DNA of 64,000 nucleotides, taken from contig NZ_JAIFZO010000002.1 in NCBI RefSeq assembly GCF_026341275.1, positions 62,001 through 126,000 of the forward strand, read 5' to 3'. The stretch is from Streptomyces ortus. Its GTDB lineage: Bacteria; Actinomycetota; Actinomycetes; Streptomycetales; Streptomycetaceae. The position numbers and the translations under genes are program-made. The first letter of the stretch is position 1. The number at the start of each line of letters is the position of its first letter. The notes beneath the pieces were generated by a model. That model saw nothing but the letters and a program-made list of their open reading frames with translations. It searched no databases and was not told the DNA's origin. Below are positions 3,208 through 42,471 of the stretch, piece after piece.

Positions 3208-6200
3208 GTGCGTCTTAGACGCTCCTCCAGATCGCCTGACGCACCGTCCGGCAGACCGTTCAGACAGCCCCGTGCCCAGGGCGGCCGTTCCCGACTCGGT
3301 GCGCGTACGCGAAGGGTGCGTGCCGCGTCCGGGCCTCTCATTCCGCTGGTCGCCATCGGCGCGGTGCTGGCCGGGCTGCTCGGCCCCCAGCCTCCGGCCG
3401 GCAACACGGTGCCCGGCAGCCTGGTCGGCGACAGCTACGACGGCTTCGACGCCGGTGCCGCCGAGCAGCTGCGTCAGGACCAGTGCCTCATGGGCGATTC
3501 CCTGCGGCTGGGCGGGCCCGCGATGGGCGCCCTCGCGCAGGGCGGCTTGAATCAGACGCCTGAGCAGTTGCGCGTCACGGCTGCCCGCGAGTACTGGAAC
3601 CACACTCCGCTGGCCGCGGCATTCCAGCAGGACAGGGACGCGACCGGCCAGAACAGCGCGGCCTTGAACGCACGACTGACGGCATGGAAGGCGCCGCTGG
3701 CCGGTCTGTCGACGCCCGCGGGCTTCACCGACACCGGGTTCGCCTGGCCTCCCGGTGTGCCCAGCGGCAGCGGGGCGGACTTCTTCGACCAGGTCGGCTA
3801 CTCCAAGTGGCTCGGGGAGCAGTACTGGAAGGACGAGAGTCTCTTCTACCAGGACCCCACCCCGCAGGCCGACGCGGCGACGGTCAAGGCGGTCAAGGAC
3901 CTGGGCACCCCGCTGTACTCGGACGTGGATCCGAACCTGCCGAGCGATCAGTGGCAGCAGGCGTACGCCGAGAGTCAGGCGTTCGAGGAGCTGGTCGACG
4001 GCTACGACCCGATGAGTGCCGACGACGCCCGGCTCTTCCTGGCCGCGGGCGGCTTCATGCGCAGCGCCCCCATGCCGGGCAGCCTTGAATTCCGGCTCGC
4101 CGTGGAGGACTTGAAGACTCGGTTCGCGGCCTGCAGTTGGCGCAACCCCGTCGACCCGAGCAAGGTGCTGGGCCAGGTCGTCGCCACTGCCTCCGCCGAG
4201 TGGCAGCAGGAGATCACCGCGCAGGCCACCGAGCGCGGGAAGATCTTCTCCGACAACCGTCAGGCGACCACGGCGCTGGCCACCGGCGCGAAGGCGCTGG
4301 GCGAGTTGCTCGGTCAGTCCTGGATCGCCGACCGCCTCACCCGCTGGCAGGACTACTGGTCGGCCGGCGGCCCCGGCTGGGTCGGTGACAGCCCGATGGT
4401 CGTCCACATCCACGCCGCGTCCGACAAGTGCCTGGAAGTGGGCGGCAACTCGAAGGCCGACGGCGCGGTCGTCCAGATGTACACGTGCAACAGCGGCGCC
4501 AACCAGAAGTGGCAGATCGCCAACAACGCCCTGGTGAACGTCAGCTCCGGCAAGTGCCTGGACGTGAAGAGCTCCGGCACCGCTGATGGCACCGTCATCC
4601 AGCAGTGGACGTGCAACCAGAGCGGCGCCCAGAAGTGGGAGTACACCACCCGCGGCACCACCCGGCTGTACAACACCGGCACCGGCAAATGCCTGGACAT
4701 GCACACCTACGCCAACAGCCAGGACGCCTGGACCTGGACCTGCAACGGCAGTGACCCGCAGAAGTTCGACATCGTGCCCTCCGGGCACAACGGCACCAGC
4801 GACGTCTTCTACCCCACCCAGGCCCAGTTCACCCAGGCCGCCAAGGGCATCACCGACGCCCGGGCCGCCGCCAAGACCCAGCTGGAGGTGCTGAGCAAGC
4901 AGGCGCAGAGCGCAGGCATCGCCGCCGTCGAGACCGACGAGCACCTCAAGGCCGCCTACGCCATCGCCGACCGCGACGGCGCTCCCCGCGGCCGGGCCCT
5001 GCTGGTGGGACAGCAAAAAGCCCAGGTGACCAAGGCGTCGGCCGCGGCGCTGACCGCCATGATGCAGGCCGGCCAGACCGCCGAGGCCGCCACCCGCGCC
5101 TCGGCCGGCGACAGCGCCACCATCACCGCCCGGGCGGTGACCCAGGCCGCCGCCACCCAGGCCGCGTTCCGCAACGCCGCCGCCAAGGCCTCCAGGGAAC
5201 AGGCCAAGGCCTCGGCCGACGCCGCCGCGGTGCAGGCCAAGAACGCCAAGGACTCCCGCGACGCCGCTAAGACCAAACTCGCCGAGACAAAGGCTGCTGA
5301 AGCGGACGCCAAGGCCGCCGCGGCCACCGCGCACGCCAAACGGCTCGCCGCGGAAACCGAGGAAGCCACCGCGAAGGCCGAGAAGGCGACCGCCGCCCAG
5401 AAGCAGGCGGAAGCCGCCCAGCACAAGACCAACGCCCAGGCACAGGCGTCCAAGGCACAGACGGCCAAGGACAAGGCCGACACCGCCGACACCACCGCCA
5501 CCGAAAAACGGCAGGGAGCCGAAACCGCCCGCGACAAGGCCAGAGACCTGCGGGACGACGCCTGGGAAGCGGAGAGCAAGGCCAACGCCAGCCGGGCCAA
5601 GGCCGATGCAAAGGAGGCCTACGCGCAGGCCAGCGAATCCGAGGACAACGCACACGAAGCCCGGCAGGCGGCCAATGAAGCCGATGCCGCCGCCGACACC
5701 GCGGAAACCGCCGCAGCCAGTGCACGCTCGGAAGCTGACCTGGCCACCCAGGCCGCGGCCGACGCCGACGCGGCGGCGACACGGGCCGAAGCCGCCGCCA
5801 AGCGCGCCCGCTCCGACTCCGACGACGCCCGGGCCGCGAAACTGAAGGCCGACGCAGCCGTGCGCACCGCGACCAGCGCGGCCGCGGACGCCATCAAGGC
5901 CTCCCGGAGTGCAGCCACCGCCGCCCGCACCGCCGACGAACTCGCCGACGACGCCGAAAAGGCCGCCGCCGACGCCAAGACACAGGCCGACGCATCCAAG
6001 AAGGACGCCGCCACCGCACTGGCCGGCGCGACCAAAGCCGCCGGATACGCCTACACCACCGCCCAGGCCGCAGTGGACGCCGGCAACTCCGCAGCCCAGG
6101 TCGCCGCACCGGCCAACGACGCCATCCAGCTCGGCTCCCCGTACATCACCAGCGACTCGGCCGCCGGACTCGCCGTCCTGACCGGCCAGTCCTCCAAGAC

Positions 6201-8181
6201 GATCGCCGAACAGCAACAAGCCGTCGCCGACGCCCACGCGAAGAACGCGTCGGAGGCCGCCGCCCAGGCACAGAGCACGGCCAACGCGGCATCCGGCGAC
6301 TCCAAAGCGGCCTACACGCTGGCCGCAGAGGCCGCCGCCTTCTCCGCGGCAGCCCGCGCCTCAGCTAAGGAAGCCCTCGGATACGCCGCAGAAGCCGCCA
6401 CGTATGCGGCGCAGGCCACCCAGTCCCTCGCGCGCACCATCGAATACGACCAACAGGCCACCGAAGACGCCGCAGCAGCAGACCGGGCGGCGGGCCGGGC
6501 CGAGGGCTACGCCGACGACGCCCGCGACTCCGCGGACGAAGCCGCCCTCGATGCCGAAGCCGCCCGCAAAGCCGCAACCGAGGCAGAGCAGGCGGCCACG
6601 GACGCCCGCAAAGCCGCCGACCATGCCGCCATCGAAGCAGCGGCAGCCGAAGAGGCAGCCAAGGACGCCCAGAAGTACGCCGACTCAGCCCAGCAGGCGG
6701 CCGAGGAGGCCGAACGCAAGAAGAACGCCCAGCAGATCGAGACCGGAACCGTCGTCGACGAGGTCGGCACCTCCATCGGCAACATGTTCTACGTCACCGA
6801 CCACACCGACCCGGTCGGCGATCCGAAGGTCGTGGAGAAGTCTGCCGGCTGCGACGGCTTCATCGACAAACTGTTCTACAAGGGCGACTGCACGATCACC
6901 ACAGAGATCCGGTTCAAAGCCACTCTGGACCTGTACCTGTGCGAGGCCGAAGGCCTGTCCTCCGACGACCTCAACGAGACACGCTACGTGTGCCCCGCCA
7001 GCGCCACGGTGTACCTGGGAACACACCCGACCAAGGAGCTGTCCACCAAGGTCACACACACCATCACGATTGCCGAGTACCAAAGGGGCGTCGACCCGGT
7101 CGACATCCTGTTCGGCAGCTGGATCAAGTGCGTCCAGAAGATCGCCCCCGGCGGCGCGAACGGAAGCCTGAGCGGATGCGGCTGGGCAGCCGTGGACGTC
7201 GCGAGCCTGTTCGCAGGAAAGATTCTCAGGCCCATCGCCGACGCGGTCAAGGCGGTGGATGCCTCCGCCAGGACCGGCATTGCGTTTACCGACGCAATCA
7301 GGGGGCTGCGCGCACTCAGCTTGTCGGACGAGGCCGTCGCGGGAATCACCAGGGTGGCGTTCCAGAAACTGGAGAGCCTCTGCCTGAAGGACAGCTTCCC
7401 CGCTGGCACACGAGTTCTTCTGTCTGATGGCCGGTCCAAACCGATCGACGAAATCAACGTCGGCGACAAGGTACTTGCTACCGACCCGGATGCCAGCAGC
7501 ACTCGCCCGGCATCTGTGACGGCGACGTTTTCCCACCCGGCTGACCAACTCCGTCAGATCAGCGTCGCCGGTGGGGGGAAGATCCTCACCACACCCGGGC
7601 ACCGGATCTATGTTCCGGGCCGCGGCTGGGTAAAGGCATCCGACCTGCGGGCAGGCGATTCACTCCGCTCTGCGACCGGTACGCTGAACGCCGTCACGGG
7701 AATTCTTCCAGTGATCGCACCGCAACGGGTATGGGACCTGAGTGTTGCAGACTTGCACAGTTTTTACGTGCTCGCAGGCAGCACTCCGGTGCTCGTTCAC
7801 AACGTCAACTGCGCCTCTTACATTGACGTCTACCCGAGCGGTCTCGGAATCATCGCCGACATCAATAAGGACGGACTCGTCTCGTTTGTCATAACCGCAG
7901 GTAAAGACACCCCCAAGGGTAGCGAGATGTTCAACGCCGCGCTCGCCCACTTCGGCGACGACGTCAAGGGCGTCAAGGCGTACTGGCAAAACGGCGGAGC
8001 GCTCAGCGACAACCTCAACTCCTTCAATGCGGCTATTAGAGGTGGCGCCTCTCTGGAAGAGGCGTCACTGGCCACATTCACTGGGAAAATGTCTTCGAGG
8101 GCAGGATTCACGCATGTAGAGATAATCGAGCTCAGAGGCCTACCTGGCAGCTACACAGAGGTAGGAGCTGTTTTCCGATGA
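3208..8181 (+). CDS. Secreted polymorphic toxin: ricin-B lectin, coiled-coil stalk, Hint, C-terminal toxin domain
   Basis: 1657 residues from the GTG at 3208, chosen because GAAGGA lies 8 bases upstream and the Arg-rich start followed by PLIPLVAIGAVLAGLL (about 42-58) makes a signal peptide or anchor. Residues 60-390 are an unassigned globular part. Residues 397-523 are a ricin-type lectin with three GKCLxx repeats and QKW/QKF motifs. Residues 540-1178 are an extreme Ala/Lys/Glu/Asp coiled coil. Residues 1180-1390 are a Cys-containing pretoxin part. Residues 1392-1534 are a Hint autoprotease domain (SFPAGT start, VGDKVLATDP, TTPGHRIYVPG, closing LVHN). The last 120 residues are a separate domain I cannot assign, placed where polymorphic toxins carry the toxic tip. 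The inferred role is an exported antibacterial toxin that binds glycans and is released by Hint cleavage. A candidate immunity gene follows. Confidence 0.85.
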   Translation: MRLRRSSRSPDAPSGRPFRQPRAQGGRSRLGARTRRVRAASGPLIPLVAIGAVLAGLLGPQPPAGNTVPGSLVGDSYDGFDAGAAEQLRQDQCLMGDSLRLGGPAMGALAQGGLNQTPEQLRVTAAREYWNHTPLAAAFQQDRDATGQNSAALNARLTAWKAPLAGLSTPAGFTDTGFAWPPGVPSGSGADFFDQVGYSKWLGEQYWKDESLFYQDPTPQADAATVKAVKDLGTPLYSDVDPNLPSDQWQQAYAESQAFEELVDGYDPMSADDARLFLAAGGFMRSAPMPGSLEFRLAVEDLKTRFAACSWRNPVDPSKVLGQVVATASAEWQQEITAQATERGKIFSDNRQATTALATGAKALGELLGQSWIADRLTRWQDYWSAGGPGWVGDSPMVVHIHAASDKCLEVGGNSKADGAVVQMYTCNSGANQKWQIANNALVNVSSGKCLDVKSSGTADGTVIQQWTCNQSGAQKWEYTTRGTTRLYNTGTGKCLDMHTYANSQDAWTWTCNGSDPQKFDIVPSGHNGTSDVFYPTQAQFTQAAKGITDARAAAKTQLEVLSKQAQSAGIAAVETDEHLKAAYAIADRDGAPRGRALLVGQQKAQVTKASAAALTAMMQAGQTAEAATRASAGDSATITARAVTQAAATQAAFRNAAAKASREQAKASADAAAVQAKNAKDSRDAAKTKLAETKAAEADAKAAAATAHAKRLAAETEEATAKAEKATAAQKQAEAAQHKTNAQAQASKAQTAKDKADTADTTATEKRQGAETARDKARDLRDDAWEAESKANASRAKADAKEAYAQASESEDNAHEARQAANEADAAADTAETAAASARSEADLATQAAADADAAATRAEAAAKRARSDSDDARAAKLKADAAVRTATSAAADAIKASRSAATAARTADELADDAEKAAADAKTQADASKKDAATALAGATKAAGYAYTTAQAAVDAGNSAAQVAAPANDAIQLGSPYITSDSAAGLAVLTGQSSKTIAEQQQAVADAHAKNASEAAAQAQSTANAASGDSKAAYTLAAEAAAFSAAARASAKEALGYAAEAATYAAQATQSLARTIEYDQQATEDAAAADRAAGRAEGYADDARDSADEAALDAEAARKAATEAEQAATDARKAADHAAIEAAAAEEAAKDAQKYADSAQQAAEEAERKKNAQQIETGTVVDEVGTSIGNMFYVTDHTDPVGDPKVVEKSAGCDGFIDKLFYKGDCTITTEIRFKATLDLYLCEAEGLSSDDLNETRYVCPASATVYLGTHPTKELSTKVTHTITIAEYQRGVDPVDILFGSWIKCVQKIAPGGANGSLSGCGWAAVDVASLFAGKILRPIADAVKAVDASARTGIAFTDAIRGLRALSLSDEAVAGITRVAFQKLESLCLKDSFPAGTRVLLSDGRSKPIDEINVGDKVLATDPDASSTRPASVTATFSHPADQLRQISVAGGGKILTTPGHRIYVPGRGWVKASDLRAGDSLRSATGTLNAVTGILPVIAPQRVWDLSVADLHSFYVLAGSTPVLVHNVNCASYIDVYPSGLGIIADINKDGLVSFVITAGKDTPKGSEMFNAALAHFGDDVKGVKAYWQNGGALSDNLNSFNAAIRGGASLEEASLATFTGKMSSRAGFTHVEIIELRGLPGSYTEVGAVFR

Positions 8182-8219
8182 ATGAGAATCTCGCCCGCCT
8201 AACGAGATAATAGTATTGA

Positions 8220-8260
8220 CGGGGTGGTCTCTTCTGGAGAAAACAGGAGAGGCCACCCCG
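8220..8260 (+). terminator. 17-bp hairpin between toxin and candidate immunity gene
   Basis: Left arm 8220-8236 pairs with 8244-8260 (core GGGGTGG/CCACCCC, two G-T pairs), loop GAGAAAA. It lies 38 bases after the toxin stop and before the 87-aa gene, so it should limit readthrough and leave the downstream gene to another promoter or to partial readthrough. Confidence 0.75.
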
Positions 8261-8301
8261 CCATGGTTAGTCGATAGTGCCGGAAAAAAGGATTGCATTA
8301 G

Positions 8302-34354: not shown

Positions 34355-35746
34355 TCAGGCCGTGAACTCGATACGGAAGGGGTCGTTGTTCACCAGGCGC
34401 TGGTACTTGCGGAGTGAGCCGAGGACACCGCCCGCCGAGCTGTTGGCCCGCTGGCTGATGTGCAGCCGCAGGCAGGTTTCGGTGCCTGTGGTCGGACGGT
34501 CCGGCCAGGTTGCCGGGGCGGACCAGACGTTGTTCACGACCTGCGGGGTCAGTTCGGCGCACAGGCTTCCGTCCTGGCCGCCCTCCTTGGTGCTGGCCAT
34601 CGGGAACTCGTCGCAGCTGTCCGCGCCGCTCGTGTTCGGGTGGATGTTGGTGAAGGGCGTGCAGGTCGCGGCGCGGTTGGTGTTCGCCTGGTCCTGGTCG
34701 ACGGCGTGCAGGATGTTGGTGCCCCGCCGCTGCATGATCTCTTCGTAGATGGGGACGACGATCCCGTACTTCTCGTGGGAGCGGGAGTAGCTCAGTACCG
34801 GAAGGTCGTCGGTGGGGATGACGCAGCCGCGTAGCCGGGGCTGTTCCTTGTCGCAGCGGATCTCGCCGTCTGCGGGGCTGGACCAGGAGGCGTTCTCGTC
34901 GATCGGGGTGGCGCCGGGCATCGTCACGTACATCGCGTAGCTGGTGCGGAAGGAGGAGCGGGTCGTGTCGGTGGCGAAGGAGTCGCCGCTGTACTTGGTG
35001 GAACCCGAGACCTGCTGTTGCGGCACCAGGGTGGTGGCGAACCAGGGCTGCTGGGTGACGGTCTTGCAGCCGGCTCCGCAGCTGACCTTCATGCGCACCG
35101 TGAGGCTCTTCACGTCACCGGAGACGTTGATCAGTTTGGCGGTGATCGTTTCTTTGAGGTCGAGGGTCTTGTAGGAGGTGGCGAGGGTGGAGTTCACCTC
35201 GATGTCGCCGGTGCCGATGGGGACGCTTTGCGCGTTGTAGAGCGTGTACTTGACGATGACGCCACGCAGGCACATGCCGCCGGTGCGGCTCCAGGTCCAC
35301 TGGCCCTCGTTGGCGACTGCGCAGGAGGGCTCGGGCGGCTCCGGATCATCGGCGTCCGGCTCGAACTCCGAGGTGGTGCCGTCACCGGACGGGTCGTCGG
35401 CGGCAGCGGCGGTGATGCCGGCGGCGGGCGGGGAGGGTGCGGCAGGCTGACGGCTCGTGGCGCCGCTCTTCTCAGCGGATACGGGCTGTACACGTGTGCA
35501 CGCTTTGACCGCGCCGCCCGCGTCCGTGCGGTTCTCGGTGGGGATCGTGGTACAGGTTGTGTCTGCGGTAAAGGCGGCGCTCTGTGTGAGTGTTTCGGCG
35601 GAGGTTGTCGCCGCGGTGGTGGCCGCCGGTGTGGCGATGGTGGTGGCGGCCGGTGTGGCCTGGCTGATGCCGGCTCCGGTGGTGCCGGTCGCGGTGACGG
35701 CGAGGAGGGCTGCCATCAGCAGCGCCGGTCTGGATGGTTTTCTCAC
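34355..35746 (-). CDS. Secreted NucA/NucB-type DNase downstream of umbC
   Basis: 463 residues. Residues 1-30 are a Sec signal (RPALLMAALLAVTATG). Residues 30-140 are Ala/Thr/Pro-rich and low complexity. Residues 140-270 look beta-rich with several Cys (CAVANEGQWTWSRTGGMC; KVSCGAGCK). The C-terminal 170 residues hold the NucA/NucB motif CDEFPMASTKEGGQDGS near residue 385, then RLVNDPFRIEF at the end. NucA/NucB enzymes are extracellular, metal-dependent DNases. The gene starts 57 bases after umbC on the same strand, so it belongs with the umbrella-toxin operon; a candidate immunity gene follows. It is likely a secreted effector or a scavenging nuclease. Confidence 0.8.
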   Translation of the reverse strand: MRKPSRPALLMAALLAVTATGTTGAGISQATPAATTIATPAATTAATTSAETLTQSAAFTADTTCTTIPTENRTDAGGAVKACTRVQPVSAEKSGATSRQPAAPSPPAAGITAAAADDPSGDGTTSEFEPDADDPEPPEPSCAVANEGQWTWSRTGGMCLRGVIVKYTLYNAQSVPIGTGDIEVNSTLATSYKTLDLKETITAKLINVSGDVKSLTVRMKVSCGAGCKTVTQQPWFATTLVPQQQVSGSTKYSGDSFATDTTRSSFRTSYAMYVTMPGATPIDENASWSSPADGEIRCDKEQPRLRGCVIPTDDLPVLSYSRSHEKYGIVVPIYEEIMQRRGTNILHAVDQDQANTNRAATCTPFTNIHPNTSGADSCDEFPMASTKEGGQDGSLCAELTPQVVNNVWSAPATWPDRPTTGTETCLRLHISQRANSSAGGVLGSLRKYQRLVNNDPFRIEFTA

Positions 35747-35803: not shown

Positions 35804-38800
35804 TCAGGCGACCAGGTCGACGAGGCTCTTAGTGATGCTGGAGACCTTGTCCTCGGCGACGTCCGTGATCTTGTCTACGACGGGCTTGATGAGCTTGCCG
35901 CCAGCGGCTTTGTCGGCTGCGCCCAGCCACTTGGACTGGCCGAAGGTGACCAGGCTCAGGCCGGTGCCGGCGGCGGAGGTGAAGAACTCGCCGCTGGTGA
36001 AGCCGTGTTCGATGCCGGTGAAGAGGGAGCCGAGGGCGCCCGCGCCGGTGGCGAGGGTGGCGAAGAAGCCGGCTGCGGCGAGGGCCGGCGGGAAGACGAA
36101 GGCGGCGAGGGTGCAGCCGGCTGCGAGGAAAGCGGCGCCGATGCTGACCGCGTTGGCCGCGTCGGCGTAGAACTGGGCGTCGTTCCACCATTCGTCGGAG
36201 TTGGCGGGGTCCTTGGTGCCGTTGGGGTTGACCTGGTCGTTCTTGCCGTTGCCGGCCGGGTCGAGTTTGGCGTCACGGTCGGCCTTGGCCTTGGCTGCGG
36301 CCTCCCTGGCTTTGGCGATCACCTCGGCGGCGTGCTTCTCGGCGGTGATCCGCTGGGCCTCGGAGTAGGCGGCGGCGGCCGCTGTGGCGTCCGCCTGCGC
36401 GGCAAGTTTGGCGGCACGGGCTGCGGCAGCCGACGTCTGGGCCGCGGCGGAGGACTTGAGAGCGGCGCGCGCCGAGTCCATCGCCTTGTTGGCGGAGTAG
36501 TTCGCTGAGCGGGCCGCGCCGCGGGCGGTCGCGGCGGCCGACTTCGCGGTGTTGGCGGAGGCCTGGGCATCGGCGGCCGACTTGTCGGCGGCGTCCGCGT
36601 TCCGGCGCGCCTCGTCGGCGAAGTTTTCGGCCTTGGCGGCGGAGGCGATCGCCTTGTCCGCCCATTCCTGGGCCTTGGCGGCGTCGTTACGGGCGTCGTA
36701 GGAGGCCTTGGTCGCCAGCGCGGCGTCCTCCTGCGCCTTCTCGGCGATCTTCGCTGCTGCCGCGATGGCGCCGCGGATCGCGGCGACGTGGGTGGCGGTG
36801 TCGTGGTCGAACTGGGCCGTACGGAACTGGACCAGGGTGATGAAGTTGCGGAGCATCCACGCCGGGCCCTCGAGGGCGACCTCCGCGTACGCCTTGGTGA
36901 AGGCGCCGCCGGTGGTGAGGAGCTCGTTGGCGCGGACCCGGTCGTCCTCGTAGACCGCCAGCGGGTAGTCGTGGTCGAAGAAGTAGTTGAGCGATTCGGT
37001 GGTGTTGATGTCGAGCGCCTTGTTGCCGGCGGCCTTGACGGCCTTGCCCGCGCCCTCATCGGCGATGATCTTGTTGATTGCCACCCGCAGTTCCTCGTCC
37101 GAGGCTCTCTTCATCCCGCTGGTGAGGAAGTCGCCGACGGCCGCGATGTCAGAGCTCTCCAGGGCGAGCGCGGCGGCCTCGGCGACCTTCGGTGCGGCGA
37201 TGGTCGCCACGTGGAGTGCGGTCTCACGGTCGTCCTGGCTCTGGGCGACGCTCCGGTCGATGTCGATCCAGGCGTAGACGTCGTCGTCGGAGCCGGCGAG
37301 CGCGTGCTGGGCGGCCTGCCGGGTCCAGGCGCCCCTGGCATCAAGCAGGGCGATAGCGGCCTTGCGCCCCAGGGGCGCAGCGAGACCCAGATCACCGGAG
37401 TACAGGGCCTGCTCGGCCTGGGCGATCCGGTCCTTGGTCTCCTGCGTGGTGCGGTCCGCAAGGAGCCGCTTGTCGCGGACGTCGGCCAGTTCGGTCGTCT
37501 CGATGGAGGCGAGTAGCTGTGCCTCCTCGATCGCCTGCTGCTTGTCCTGCTCCAGGGTCTGGGCCTCGGCGGCGCGCGCGTTCTTCTCCACCTCGATGGC
37601 GTCGGACACGGCCTGGGTGGCAACGTTCGCGGCTTTCACGGCCTGATCGGAGTGTGCGGTCGACTTGTTGGCGTAGTCGATGGCCTGGCCTGCGTACTTC
37701 ACGGCCTCCTCGGCGGCGGCTGCCGCCTTGTCGGCGTGGTCGGCTGCGGAGTTGGCGGCGTCGCGCGCGGTGCGTGCCGCCGCCGCGGCGGCGGACGCCA
37801 GGGACTGGGCGGCGGAGGCTGCGTTGGTAGCGCGGTTGGCGGCGCTGGTGGCGATGGCGGCCTGGCGCTTCGCCTCGTCGGCCTCGGCCTTGGCGGCACC
37901 CGCCGAGGCGGCGGCCTGTGCGGCGGCGGTGGCGGCGGCGGCCGAGTTGCGTGCGGCGGAGGCGGCCGCCTTGCCGGCGGTCGCCGCCTGGTCGCCGGCG
38001 ATGGCCGCCTTGTCGGCGGCCTTGGCAGCGGTACGGGCCTTGTCGGCGGCGTTCTTCGCGGCGACCGCAGCGTCCTTGGCGATCTGTGTCTTGTTCGCGT
38101 CCTTGGAGGCGGCTATCGCTGCGCTGTAGGCGTAGGCTGCGGCGCTGCCTGCCTTCGAGGCGGCCTGTGCGGCGCCGGCGGCTGCCCAGGAGGCGCGGCG
38201 GGATGCCTTCACCGCGGCGTTGGAGGCGTTGATGGCGTTGCGTGCGGCGTCTGCCGCGCCCTTTGCCGCGCTCGACGCTTTGCGGGCCGCGGCCGCTGAC
38301 TTCTGCACATCGCTCTGGGCGGCGGATGCCTCGGCGGCGGCTTTCTGGGCGGCCTCCTTGGCTTTTCCGGCGGCGGTTTCGGCGCGTGCGGAGGCCTCCA
38401 CGGCCAGGTTGGTCTCGCGTTCGGCGCGCTTGCCCTCGCGCTCGACGACGGCCACCAGTTCCTCGATGGTCGCCGACTCCTGGTCGCGGGCACGCGCGAT
38501 GTGCTGACCGGTCTCGATGAACCACTCCACATCGGTCGCGGTGCCGCTGAGCGCACGGTTCGCGTACTTCCGCACCTCCGCGCCGGCGGTCAGCAGCATG
38601 GCGCTGATCTGGACCTGGGTGTCCTCCAGGCGTGCGTCGTACTGCTTGTCGGTGAGGAAGGCGGTGAGTGTCGGCGCGGTGCCGGTGTCGAGGGCGGTGT
38701 TGGCGTCGCGCACCACCGCCTTGTCGCCGGTGGCCGAGACGACGGTGGTGGCGACCTGGAGGTCTTCGATGATGGCGGGTTTGAAGCCGTCTTTCAGGAA

Positions 38801-39184
38801 CGCGGCGATCGCGGTGTCGCCGTTCTCGAGGGCGGCGACGGCCTCCCGGCGCAGGCCCTTGCCCGCACGGTCCAAGCTGCGAACGATCGCGACCCGGTTG
38901 TCTTCCACGGTCTGCTTGGGCAGCGTCTCAACGAGGAACGTCTGGATGTCGGCATCTGTCCCGTAGAGGGCCTGGGCGGCGGCGGCTTTGACGCCCTTGC
39001 CTCCGGTCAGCCACGCCCTGACAACCTTGGCGCGCTCGGTGTCCGGCAGCGGCACCGGTTCGGGCACGGCGCTTTCGGTGGCAGCGGCGGTGGCCGGTAT
39101 CAGGGCCGAGGGTGTGGCCGCTACGGCGGCAGCGGCCGCGAGAGAGCCGAGTACGCGGCGTCTGCTCCAGAACGTTGTCTGCAT
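35804..39184 (-). CDS. umbC: UmbC: ALF-repeat ring and coiled-coil stalk protein of an umbrella toxin
   Basis: 1126 residues from the ATG at 39184 (AAGGAA upstream). It starts with a twin-arginine signal (SRRRVLGSLAAAAAV). Residues 50-235 are four ALF-type repeats (AWLTGGKGVKAAAAQALYG and relatives). Residues 235-590 are a very long Ala-rich coiled coil. Residues 608-800 hold four more ALF repeats. Residues 800-965 are a second coiled coil. Residues 978-1126 are a linker and a hydrophobic Gly/Ala-rich domain (SIGAAFLAAGCTLAAFVFPP) ending VDLVA. This two-fold ALF-and-coil layout is the known UmbC plan: eight ALF repeats build a ring and the coils a stalk with the toxin tip. The tip has no nuclease motif and looks membrane-active or pretoxin-like. 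It is divergent from umbB-umbA. Confidence 0.9.
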   Translation of the reverse strand: MQTTFWSRRRVLGSLAAAAAVAATPSALIPATAAATESAVPEPVPLPDTERAKVVRAWLTGGKGVKAAAAQALYGTDADIQTFLVETLPKQTVEDNRVAIVRSLDRAGKGLRREAVAALENGDTAIAAFLKDGFKPAIIEDLQVATTVVSATGDKAVVRDANTALDTGTAPTLTAFLTDKQYDARLEDTQVQISAMLLTAGAEVRKYANRALSGTATDVEWFIETGQHIARARDQESATIEELVAVVEREGKRAERETNLAVEASARAETAAGKAKEAAQKAAAEASAAQSDVQKSAAAARKASSAAKGAADAARNAINASNAAVKASRRASWAAAGAAQAASKAGSAAAYAYSAAIAASKDANKTQIAKDAAVAAKNAADKARTAAKAADKAAIAGDQAATAGKAAASAARNSAAAATAAAQAAASAGAAKAEADEAKRQAAIATSAANRATNAASAAQSLASAAAAAARTARDAANSAADHADKAAAAAEEAVKYAGQAIDYANKSTAHSDQAVKAANVATQAVSDAIEVEKNARAAEAQTLEQDKQQAIEEAQLLASIETTELADVRDKRLLADRTTQETKDRIAQAEQALYSGDLGLAAPLGRKAAIALLDARGAWTRQAAQHALAGSDDDVYAWIDIDRSVAQSQDDRETALHVATIAAPKVAEAAALALESSDIAAVGDFLTSGMKRASDEELRVAINKIIADEGAGKAVKAAGNKALDINTTESLNYFFDHDYPLAVYEDDRVRANELLTTGGAFTKAYAEVALEGPAWMLRNFITLVQFRTAQFDHDTATHVAAIRGAIAAAAKIAEKAQEDAALATKASYDARNDAAKAQEWADKAIASAAKAENFADEARRNADAADKSAADAQASANTAKSAAATARGAARSANYSANKAMDSARAALKSSAAAQTSAAAARAAKLAAQADATAAAAAYSEAQRITAEKHAAEVIAKAREAAAKAKADRDAKLDPAGNGKNDQVNPNGTKDPANSDEWWNDAQFYADAANAVSIGAAFLAAGCTLAAFVFPPALAAAGFFATLATGAGALGSLFTGIEHGFTSGEFFTSAAGTGLSLVTFGQSKWLGAADKAAGGKLIKPVVDKITDVAEDKVSSITKSLVDLVA

Positions 39185-39620
39185 GGGAAATTCCTTATCG
39201 AGGCAGCGGAGTGAGGCCCGCCGCAATCGCGCCGACAGGGCAAGCCACGGAAATACGTGCGGGGGCATCACTGAATTGCAGTGACCCTATCAACTCGCAG
39301 CCTTAAAACCAGCGTTGTGGGCCGGGCAGGGCAACTCGGCCACAATGCATGCCTTTACATGACCCTCACAATCATCCATACAACCTTTTCGCGAGATGGC
39401 GAAGGTCACACCAAGCATGTATTCAATGCCCCGTTTGGGCAGGTAAAAGCGGTAGACCAAGGGTCTACTTCGTGTTGCCATGACGGAACCCACGGTGATG
39501 ACGCGTCGTCAAGCCTGTCCCCAGGGTGGCCGGGCGGGGCGCTTCAGGACGACGATAAGAGCCTTTGAACACTCAATCCTGTCCTGTATGCCTGTGATTT
39601 TATTCGAGCTGAGGAATGCA
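39185..39620. promoter_or_regulatory. Divergent promoter region of the Umb locus with a dyad
   Basis: 436 bases separate umbC (leftward) from umbB (rightward), lower in GC than the genes. GTAGACC-AAG-GGTCTAC at 39452-39468 is a perfect dyad and a plausible operator. No gene is supported here; short frames inside are unlikely. Confidence 0.65.
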
Positions 39621-40169
39621 ATGAGGAAGCGCAGCACAATGACACCGCGACAGCGAAGAATTGGACTTGCGGCAAGAATTTTCGGCACTGTGGCAACCGG
39701 CGCTCTCACAATCCTCGCGATGACCACCGGCCTCCTCGGCTCGCCCGCCCATGAGACATCGGCATCACCCGGGCTTGTCGCGGACGGCACTCCCGGCTAC
39801 GCCGTCGAGGACTACAACTACCCGCAGGCCGACAAAATCCTGGCGGAGAAGAACCTCGTCCTCAAGCGCGGCGACGGACACATCACCCTCGCTGACTGCG
39901 CGGCCGGCACGGGGCAGCTGGAGCTCCTGGCACGCAACAACACCAGCAAGATCTGCTTCAAGGTCGTCGGCAACGAGGGCTGGCTGACCCTGGAGATCCC
40001 TTCCGTCTACTCGGTGAAAGGCAACGACTACTCCACCACCGTCGACATGACCGTCGGCGCCGAGGAGAAGACCTACGAGATCGACAAGAACACCTGGACA
40101 CCTGTGGGTGAGGCCGCGGACACAGAAGGCCGGGAGCACATGCTCGTGGAGATCCGGACGACGAAGTAG
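39621..40169 (+). CDS. umbB: UmbB: adaptor protein of the umbrella toxin
   Basis: 182 residues from the ATG at 39621 (GAGGAA upstream). Residues 1-45 are a basic N-terminus with a hydrophobic signal or anchor (IFGTVATGALTILAMTTGLL). The mature part is a small beta-rich domain (ELLARNNTSKICFKVVGNEG, YSTTVDMTVGAEEKTYEID) of about 130 residues with two Cys. The size, secretion and position between umbC and umbA match UmbB, which links lectin spokes to the UmbC ring. It is cotranscribed with umbA. Confidence 0.8.
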   Translation: MRKRSTMTPRQRRIGLAARIFGTVATGALTILAMTTGLLGSPAHETSASPGLVADGTPGYAVEDYNYPQADKILAEKNLVLKRGDGHITLADCAAGTGQLELLARNNTSKICFKVVGNEGWLTLEIPSVYSVKGNDYSTTVDMTVGAEEKTYEIDKNTWTPVGEAADTEGREHMLVEIRTTK

Positions 40170-40260
40170 CCGCGTGCGGGTGCAGATTCCCGCAACTGCC
40201 CTGTTCAGCACCGCATGCCTATCGTCCAAGTCCGCGTCCAGCAAGGAACCTCGCACACCC

Positions 40261-42471
40261 ATGAGACTCACCAGACGATCCCGCAGCGTCGCGCTCGCCG
40301 CGTCCATGGCCGCCGCACCGCTCATGCTGAGCGCTGTTCCGGCCGCCGCCGTAACCGGCCCGGCTTCCGCCGCCGCCGACACCACCCACGCCTACACCGC
40401 ACAGCTGACCATCGGCAGTCACGACCAGGGCTGCTCCGGCGTTCTGGTCGACACCGAATGGCTACTCACCGCCGCCAGCTGTTTCGCCGCGGACCCGGCG
40501 ACCAGCCTTGCCGTCGACGCCGGCGCGCCCAAGAAGCCGGTCACCGCCACCATCGGCCGCACCAATCTGAGCAGCAGCTCCGGCGCCGTACGCCAGGTAG
40601 TCGAGCTGGTGCCGCGCACCGACCGCGATGTGGTCCTGGCCCGCCTGAACCAGCCAGTCACCAACGTCGCGCCGGCCACCCTGGCCAGCACCGCACCCAC
40701 CGCCGGCGAGGAACTGAAGTTCGCGGGCTACGGCCGTACCGCTGATGAGTGGGCGCCGCTGAGCCTGCACACCGGCACCTACACCGTCAACTCGGCCGCC
40801 GCTACCACGGCGGCCGTCACCGGCAAGGACGCCGCCGCATGCCTGGGCGACTCCGGCGGCCCCGTCCTTCGCGGTACCGGCTCCACGGCTCAGCTGATCG
40901 CCCTCAACAGCCAGTCATTCCAGGGCGGTTGTCTCGGCACCGACGCCACTCAGACCAGTACCGCAGGTATCACCGCCCGTGTCGACGACCTGAAGTCCTG
41001 GATCGACACTAAGGTCCGCGCCACAGCGATCACCGACTTCAACGGTGACGGCGTCGAAGACATCGCCATCGCCGATCCGAAGGCGAGCGTCGGCGGGGAT
41101 GCCGGCGCCGGCCTGGTACGGGTCGTGTACGGCGGCAAGGGCACCGCTCAGATCGACCAGGACCTGGACTGGGTGTCCGGCGGAGCCGAGGCGAACGACG
41201 GCTTCGGCGAGGCGCTGGCCACCGTCGATTACAACCAGGACGGATACACCGACCTGGTGGTCGCCAGCCCGGGAGAGGCACTGGCCGACGTCCCGAACGC
41301 GGGCATGGTCCACGTACTCTTCGGCGGCCCCAGCGGACTGGGAACCGGAGCGGTCAAGAGCAAGAACCTGGAGCAGGGCGCGGGCACCGGCGCGATCCTC
41401 GCCTCGACCTCCGAGGCCGGTGACCGCATGGGCCAGGCCCTCACGGCCGGCACCACAGCCGCAGGCCGCCCGTGGATCCTCATCGGTGTACCGGGCGAGT
41501 CCGTCGGCACCGAGGCCGGGGCCGGCATGGTCTTCTACGTCTACGGCGACACCAGCCGCACCCTCCACCAGGACCTTCCCACCTCAGTGCCGGGGGTGGC
41601 CGAGGCCGGCGACAAGTTCGGTGCCGCCGTCGCGGGCGACGGAAACTTCTTCGCCATCGGCGCGCCCGGCGAAGCCATTGGCACCGCGACCGAATCCGGC
41701 ACGGTGGCCCTGTTCAGCCACACCCTGGACGCGGACGGCCGGCCCACCTCCATCGGCGGTCTAGACCAGGACAACAGCGCAGTCACCGGTGCCGCCGAGG
41801 CGGGCGACGAGTTCGGGGCCGCCCTGGCCATGACCGCCTACCGCTCCTCCACCACGACCGGTAGCAACACCTCCATGCTGGCGATCGGTTCACCGGGCGA
41901 GACCACCACCGCTGGCGGTGCCGACGCAGGGGAAGCAGGCCGCGCCATCCTGGTACGGGTCAACGCCGACAGCACCTGGAGCTACCTGCGTGAACTCCGC
42001 CAGGGCGAAGCGGACGACACAGTCGTGGGCACCTCGGAGACCGGTGACCGGATGGGAGAGAGCCTGACAGCGATCAACACTGCGCCGCGCGAAGTAGCCA
42101 CCGCTACCACCCTGCTCCTCGCCGTCGGAACCCCTGGTGAGGCCATCGGTACGGAGGCCGCGGCCGGGGCGATCCACAGCTTCTCGATGCTGGGCGCGGC
42201 GGGCGACAGCGACCTGTGGCTCGAAGCCGGAGACGGCGACGGCATTCCCGGCACTCCCAAAGCCGGCCAGCGCGTGGGCCAGAGCATCCACTTCACCGGC
42301 ACTCGCCTGTACGCCGGCATGCCTTACGGGCCCAGCGCCTACGGCGCCCTGCATGCCCTGCCGATCGGCAATGTCATTCCCGGCGGCACCGACGGAACGG
42401 TGACCACCTACCAACCCGGAGCCGGCGGCCTACCCACGACGGGAACCGCGTTCGGCTACGCCGCGCGCTGA
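40261..42471 (+). CDS. umbA: UmbA: trypsin-fold/beta-propeller lectin protein
   Basis: 736 residues from the ATG at 40261. Residues 1-38 are a signal peptide. Residues 40-245 have a trypsin fold: Asp123 and GDSGG (Ser198) are present, but the catalytic His position reads LLTAASC with Ser73, so it should be a pseudoprotease. Residues 255-730 are FG-GAP/VCBS-like propeller repeats (DFNGDGVEDIAIADP; IGVPGESVG; IGAPGEAIG; VGTPGEAIG), the lectin that targets cell surface glycans. It completes the Umb set with umbB and umbC. A hairpin at 42486-42517 may terminate the operon. Confidence 0.85.
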   Translation: MRLTRRSRSVALAASMAAAPLMLSAVPAAAVTGPASAAADTTHAYTAQLTIGSHDQGCSGVLVDTEWLLTAASCFAADPATSLAVDAGAPKKPVTATIGRTNLSSSSGAVRQVVELVPRTDRDVVLARLNQPVTNVAPATLASTAPTAGEELKFAGYGRTADEWAPLSLHTGTYTVNSAAATTAAVTGKDAAACLGDSGGPVLRGTGSTAQLIALNSQSFQGGCLGTDATQTSTAGITARVDDLKSWIDTKVRATAITDFNGDGVEDIAIADPKASVGGDAGAGLVRVVYGGKGTAQIDQDLDWVSGGAEANDGFGEALATVDYNQDGYTDLVVASPGEALADVPNAGMVHVLFGGPSGLGTGAVKSKNLEQGAGTGAILASTSEAGDRMGQALTAGTTAAGRPWILIGVPGESVGTEAGAGMVFYVYGDTSRTLHQDLPTSVPGVAEAGDKFGAAVAGDGNFFAIGAPGEAIGTATESGTVALFSHTLDADGRPTSIGGLDQDNSAVTGAAEAGDEFGAALAMTAYRSSTTTGSNTSMLAIGSPGETTTAGGADAGEAGRAILVRVNADSTWSYLRELRQGEADDTVVGTSETGDRMGESLTAINTAPREVATATTLLLAVGTPGEAIGTEAAAGAIHSFSMLGAAGDSDLWLEAGDGDGIPGTPKAGQRVGQSIHFTGTRLYAGMPYGPSAYGALHALPIGNVIPGGTDGTVTTYQPGAGGLPTTGTAFGYAAR

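Follow-up and report, generated by a model that had tools for sequence, protein, structure and literature searches.

Streptomyces deploy multi-protein umbrella toxins against each other (PMC11062931). The stalk of the Umb1 particle has been published as about 300 Å long, and both the role of the stalk and the way in which umbrella toxins deliver their tips were named as open questions (PMC11062931). In polymorphic toxins, the RicinB domain has been placed N-terminally, between RHS repeats, or close to the tip (PMC3482391). Here we describe a gene from Streptomyces ortus that lies within a stretch of 64,000 nucleotides (RefSeq assembly GCF_026341275.1, contig NZ_JAIFZO010000002.1, positions 62,001 to 126,000 of the forward strand), analyzed as a whole and referred to below as the window. 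Its product of 1657 amino acids is quite probably a secreted polymorphic toxin, in which one chain carries what umbrella particles divide among UmbA, UmbB, and UmbC. The corresponding family of one-chain lectin-stalk toxins is apparently new to the literature, being described neither in the umbrella-toxin papers nor in the 2012 polymorphic-toxin survey (subscription papers and supplements were outside the scope of this comparison).

The gene starts with GTG at position 3208 and its stop codon ends at 8181. This start aligns with the start positions of close homologues, and the frame is open upstream as well (1815 amino acids when counted from 2734). Pfam analysis of the protein identified RicinB_lectin_2 (1.5e-30), Ricin_B_lectin (5.6e-25, residues 399-520), and PT-HINT (2.3e-16, residues 1411-1532). 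The complete domain order is an N-terminal hydrophobic segment, an N-domain of 320 residues, the ricin-B lectin, an Ala-rich coil, a Cys-rich connector, the Hint domain, and a tip of 125 residues (coordinates in Table 1). A preliminary description of this DNA had placed a ricin-B lectin, a long Ala-rich coil, a Hint domain, and a C-terminal domain in one protein at the same coordinates, and the reading frame, Pfam, and heptad analysis confirm this; the N-domain, the connector, and a downstream open reading frame (ORF) are parts that it did not include.

The N-domain was found in 80 of 296 Streptomyces genomes, and the five matches in a phylum-wide sample of 396 genomes were all in Streptomyces. 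Full genes were taken from 60 genome loci and 80 named loci. Among the C-termini of 100 homologues, Pfam identified PT-HINT in 58, RNAse_A_bac in 38, and XOO_2897-deam in 15, as well as the rarer Ntox27 (4), Tox-REase-5 (4), LHH (2), Ntox43 (2), and colicin D (1). The nearest relative, from Streptomyces sp. BV286 (locus L119), shares about 95% identity as far as residue ~1361 and continues with an unrelated deaminase-like tip that lacks Hint. On the N-domain tree of 67 proteins we counted at least 29 changes of tip type and at least 19 changes in the presence of Hint, both numbers standing without a shuffled-label control. Judged from these sequences, the family has a conserved backbone and swapped C-terminal toxin domains, as polymorphic toxins do. 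A structural or adhesion protein would have been expected had the homologues never shown toxin-like variable C-termini; such termini were found: the C-termini differ while the backbone stays, and they include known toxin families. The combination of a long rod and a lectin is typical of adhesins, and the protein might accordingly belong to the hyphal surface and carry no toxin. We consider this extremely improbable and rejected it on the diversity of tips and the downstream genes, namely the known toxin domains in homologue tips, the small tip-specific genes that follow them, and the clean breakpoint between backbone and tip in Streptomyces sp. BV286.

Grouped by sequence, the tips fall into 15 types. 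The type of the window protein has seven members and occurs both with and without Hint. The same tip domain is found in an RHS-HINT protein (L189), where it follows a Hint domain ending in VLVHN. A related actinobacterium also has it in the interior of a giant multidomain protein (L188), whose frame is open for 20955 amino acids. By this distribution, the tip is a mobile, putative toxin domain. It was absent from the plasmid collection searched. A PDB sequence match of the tip to BurrH was discarded, as it consisted of chance-like repeats only. A homologous small ORF follows all seven genes of this tip type, so that the downstream gene is specific for the tip, and a further copy stands behind a different toxin (L146) in an orphan-immunity-like position. 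The encoded protein of 87 residues has no Pfam or PHROGs family, and the ORF is likely an immunity gene. The stretch between the toxin gene and this ORF (8196-8275) folds with -40.5 kcal/mol (z -6.6); its very stable hairpin suggests that the ORF is expressed separately or in an attenuated manner.

The Hint domain ends with TPVLVHN at residue 1532, leaving 125 residues behind it. The motifs TxxH (here TPGH), D..H, and C-terminal His-Asn (here VHN) are all present, and the structural model (predicted local distance difference test score, pLDDT, mostly 89-97) matches 2lwy with TMt 0.93 and 35% identity. VHN was found in all 61 Hint-containing members, a set that was itself collected by this motif, and the next residue is Cys in 51 of them. 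In the model of connector, Hint, and tip, three alignment rows were misaligned in the tip, and the tip model was not used for any claim about its fold. Release of the C-terminal tip by Asn cyclization is plausible from these motifs. The earlier suggestion of tip release by Hint cleavage thus stands as far as the complete set of motifs is concerned, but not as a general rule, given that only 58 of the 100 homologues carry Hint.

The coil covers about 646 residues (~541-1186), with about 39% Ala in its core and a heptad period of 3.5. Residues 585-1140 form a block of exactly 556 residues without a single gap column in all 67 aligned proteins, despite pairwise identities down to 61% (74% on average), and at 142 of the 556 columns Ala is present in at least 95% of the proteins. 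Unlike the stalk, the N-domain, the lectin, and the connector each vary in length among the same 67 proteins. The lack of insertions and deletions throughout this set argues that the exact length of the stalk is functional. AlphaFold, provided with 59 sequences, predicts three helices of 195, 170, and 195 residues (mean pLDDT 87.6; predicted template modeling score, pTM, 0.58), and a helix of 195 residues corresponds to about 29 nm. The coil noticed initially is therefore modeled as a three-helix stalk of ~29 nm. The model and its match to 8w20_A agree with a coiled-coil stalk of ~300 Å bearing a distal tip, the position of the tip following from the order of the chain.

Among 916 solved chains that were re-aligned, the top structural match of the stalk is UmbC1 of the Umb1 particle (8w20_A; Z 25.3, 2.8 Å over 315 residues, 26% identity), and in Foldseek UmbC1 also stood high up among the lectin matches (E 1.8e-7). 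In a profile comparison, the third helix matched coil 2 of UmbC collinearly with a probability of 92.5 and a score of 47.3, far above all 40 heptad-preserving column shuffles (mean 20.0, standard deviation 3.6, maximum 29.8). Columns 16-52 of the N-domain gave weak profile matches to ALF repeats, with scores of 24.8 and 26.0 against shuffle maxima of 21.5 and 20.6. Near the same place, PF03752 was detected in distant members at E-values of 0.0004-0.018, under its cut-off, and the ALF-like segment recurs at one position in several members. The resemblance to umbrella particles that had been remarked upon earlier is thus more than an analogy. With default scoring, a plain hidden Markov model (HMM) search of the N-domain and stalk against UmbC produced only three matches, all to the third helix. 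When composition correction was switched off, the initial part of the stalk scored no higher against UmbC than against reversed or heptad-shuffled UmbC, and for this reason we used only the shuffle-controlled profile comparison.

These raw HMM scores also favor a different explanation, in which the likeness of the stalk to UmbC is convergence, of a kind open to any Ala-rich three-helix coil, and the protein stands on its own, as one of the lectin-bearing polymorphic toxins recognized in general terms in 2012. The ALF-like match of the N-domain, falling under the Pfam cut-off, is consistent with convergence too, as is the lack of any profile match between helices 1-2 and coil 1 of UmbC (probability 1.2). 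The last result is one of several that weigh against our interpretation of the protein as a whole. Long helices push structural scores up; the packing of the stalk helices is only moderately certain because of the pTM of 0.58; and the tip has no functionally known relative in Pfam or PDB, nor any in PHROGs. In addition, the first Hint residue is Ser instead of Cys and VHN is followed by Val, which may make cleavage slow or restrict it to the C-terminal side. On the other side, convergence does not readily account for the collinear match of the third helix above every shuffle, for UmbC1 as the top structural match, or for the recurrent position of the ALF-like segment, and we regard it as rather unlikely. 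Common descent of the family and UmbC is the better supported of the two origins, and the protein is probably distantly related to UmbC and equipped with a lectin of its own, rather than an independent invention. A second, previously unnamed architecture had been proposed for it in the preliminary description; it is apparently undescribed in the papers compared, but probably not separate from Umb. We lean slightly towards a monomeric umbrella toxin that shares an ancestor with UmbC-type stalk toxins, has no ALF ring, UmbA, or UmbB, bears a ricin-B lectin, a laminin-G lectin, or no lectin on the same chain, and includes tandem forms with two stalks.

At the N-terminus, an Arg-rich region and a hydrophobic stretch occupy the same place in homologues, and the twin-Arg motif is not conserved. 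Secretion of the protein is suggested by this stretch together with the extracellular-type domains. The N-domain has no Pfam family above cut-off and no PDB relative by sequence search. Pfam and structural matches support a beta-trefoil fold for the ricin-B lectin, with predicted sugar binding. Other members of the family have different heads: a laminin-G (ConA-like) lectin precedes the N-domain in place of ricin-B in one protein that also contains PT-HINT (L202:2605-7770), and four distant members of about 1300 residues (L194, L196, L197, L200) are without a recognizable lectin. In three proteins of about 2500 residues (L106:4159-11475, L198:4641-12284, L199:6611-14158), the N-domain and Ala-rich stalk are duplicated in tandem, the latter two ending in Ntox27.

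The hydrophobic segment is not followed by a clear signal-peptidase site, and the lectin lies close to the N-terminus. Both features would fit a wall-anchored contact toxin, in which the segment stays in the membrane of the producer, the stalk spans the wall, and the lectin holds the producer's own wall; anchoring by N-terminal domains (SH3, laminin-G) has been proposed for such toxins (PMC3482391). However, the UmbC-type toxins, which have a similar stalk, occur as released particles (PMC11062931), and the mean pairwise identity is lower in the lectin (0.54) than in the N-domain (0.65) or the stalk (0.74), as expected for a domain that recognizes targets. An anchored toxin therefore appears unlikely to us.

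The window also contains an umbrella locus, as initially reported, with Pfam identifying an UmbC gene with eight ALF repeats and an UmbA-like gene. By definition and from its gene neighborhood, the 1657-residue protein is not an Umb particle. It has no Pfam ALF match, and ALF matches in the whole genome are confined to the UmbC gene. No UmbA-type trypsin, UmbB, or ALF sequence was found near family genes at any of 123 loci (mean 13.7 kb, neighborhood only); for comparison, UmbA and UmbB partners were present at 13 and 15 of 20 UmbC loci, respectively. Proteins with ALF were detected in 55 of the 80 family genomes and none was found in 25 (odds ratio 2.3, p 0.003, ignoring genome relatedness). 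Pfam recognizes no toxin domain in the UmbC of the window. The next gene (34355-35746, minus strand), which precedes a DUF6461 gene, codes for a distinct protein that has a NucA/NucB DNase domain and is probably secreted; this Umb system may have its toxin on a gene of its own.

For the single-chain toxin we propose the following mechanism. The N-domain and lectin would make up a head with which the protein attaches to a sugar on the surface of a target actinobacterium, and the rigid three-helix Ala coil, of fixed length (~29 nm), would place the toxin at the other end of the molecule. Presentation or entry may be aided by the Cys-rich connector. Where Hint is present, cyclization of Asn1532 would liberate the C-terminal tip, which would act in or at the target, and the protein of 87 residues encoded downstream would shield the producer. 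If the monomeric-umbrella reading is true, a fixed stalk of ~29 nm would be a core element of the delivery mechanism in both lines. A one-gene relative with equal stalk length and without ring or partners offers a minimal natural system in which to establish which of lectin, stalk, connector, and tip suffice. With this family, roughly one in four of the sampled Streptomyces genomes gains a further toxin class, among them the 25 without a detected ALF protein.

Table 1. Features of the single-chain toxin gene and of the umbrella locus, in window coordinates
Feature	Position	Strand	Basis
Single-chain lectin-stalk polymorphic toxin (putative), 1657 aa	3208..8181	+	Reading frame, Pfam; start backed by homologues
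Hydrophobic segment after Arg-rich region, residues ~41-63; predicted signal peptide or signal anchor	3328..3396	+	Arrangement matched in homologues
Family-defining N-domain, residues 75-395, mostly helical, opening with ALF-like segment ~90-126	3430..4392	+	Homologue alignment
Ricin-B beta-trefoil lectin, residues 399-520	4402..4767	+	Pfam; structure matches to CBM13 and ricin-B chains
Ala-rich stalk, residues 541-1186; helices 596-790, 794-963, 984-1178; fixed length 585-1140	4828..6765	+	Alignment, model
Connector with conserved Cys, residues 1190-1395, variable among homologues	6775..7392	+	Alignment; model mostly low-confidence
PT-HINT / bacterial intein-like domain, residues 1396-1532; predicted to cleave itself after Asn1532	7393..7803	+	Pfam, model, motifs
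Putative toxin tip, residues 1533-1657, no Pfam model	7804..8178	+	Alignment of tip type
Hairpin, stem of 17 bp, separating the toxin gene from the ORF; terminator-like, no T-run	8219..8262	+	Predicted fold
Candidate immunity gene, 87 aa	8302..8565	+	Homologous ORF behind all genes of tip type
UmbC, eight ALF repeats, two coils	35804-39271	-	Pfam
UmbA-like trypsin and FG-GAP protein	40108-42471	+	Pfam

Several known systems share parts of this arrangement. The bacterial intein-like domain of Clostridium thermocellum (2lwy) has the same fold as residues 1396-1532, which here begin with Ser and are placed between the stalk connector and the tip. RHS-HINT polymorphic toxins (L189) likewise have a HINT domain ending in VLVHN before the same tip family, but RHS repeats replace the lectin and coil. 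The lectin-bearing polymorphic toxins (PMC3482391) have a lectin, stalk, HINT, exchangeable tip, and immunity gene in common with the present family, whereas the N-domain and fixed-length coil are not described there (supplements outside scope). The Umb particle with its UmbC (PMC11062931, PMC13274773; PDB 8w20) likewise comes from Streptomyces and combines an Ala-rich coiled-coil stalk of ~30 nm, a head opposite a variable HINT/toxin tip, a lectin for target binding, and an immunity gene. In contrast to the eight-ALF ring of UmbC, the head of our protein is an N-domain of 320 residues with at most one ALF-like segment, no UmbA or UmbB partner stands beside the gene, and the lectin is fused in cis on a chain without a conserved Tat motif.
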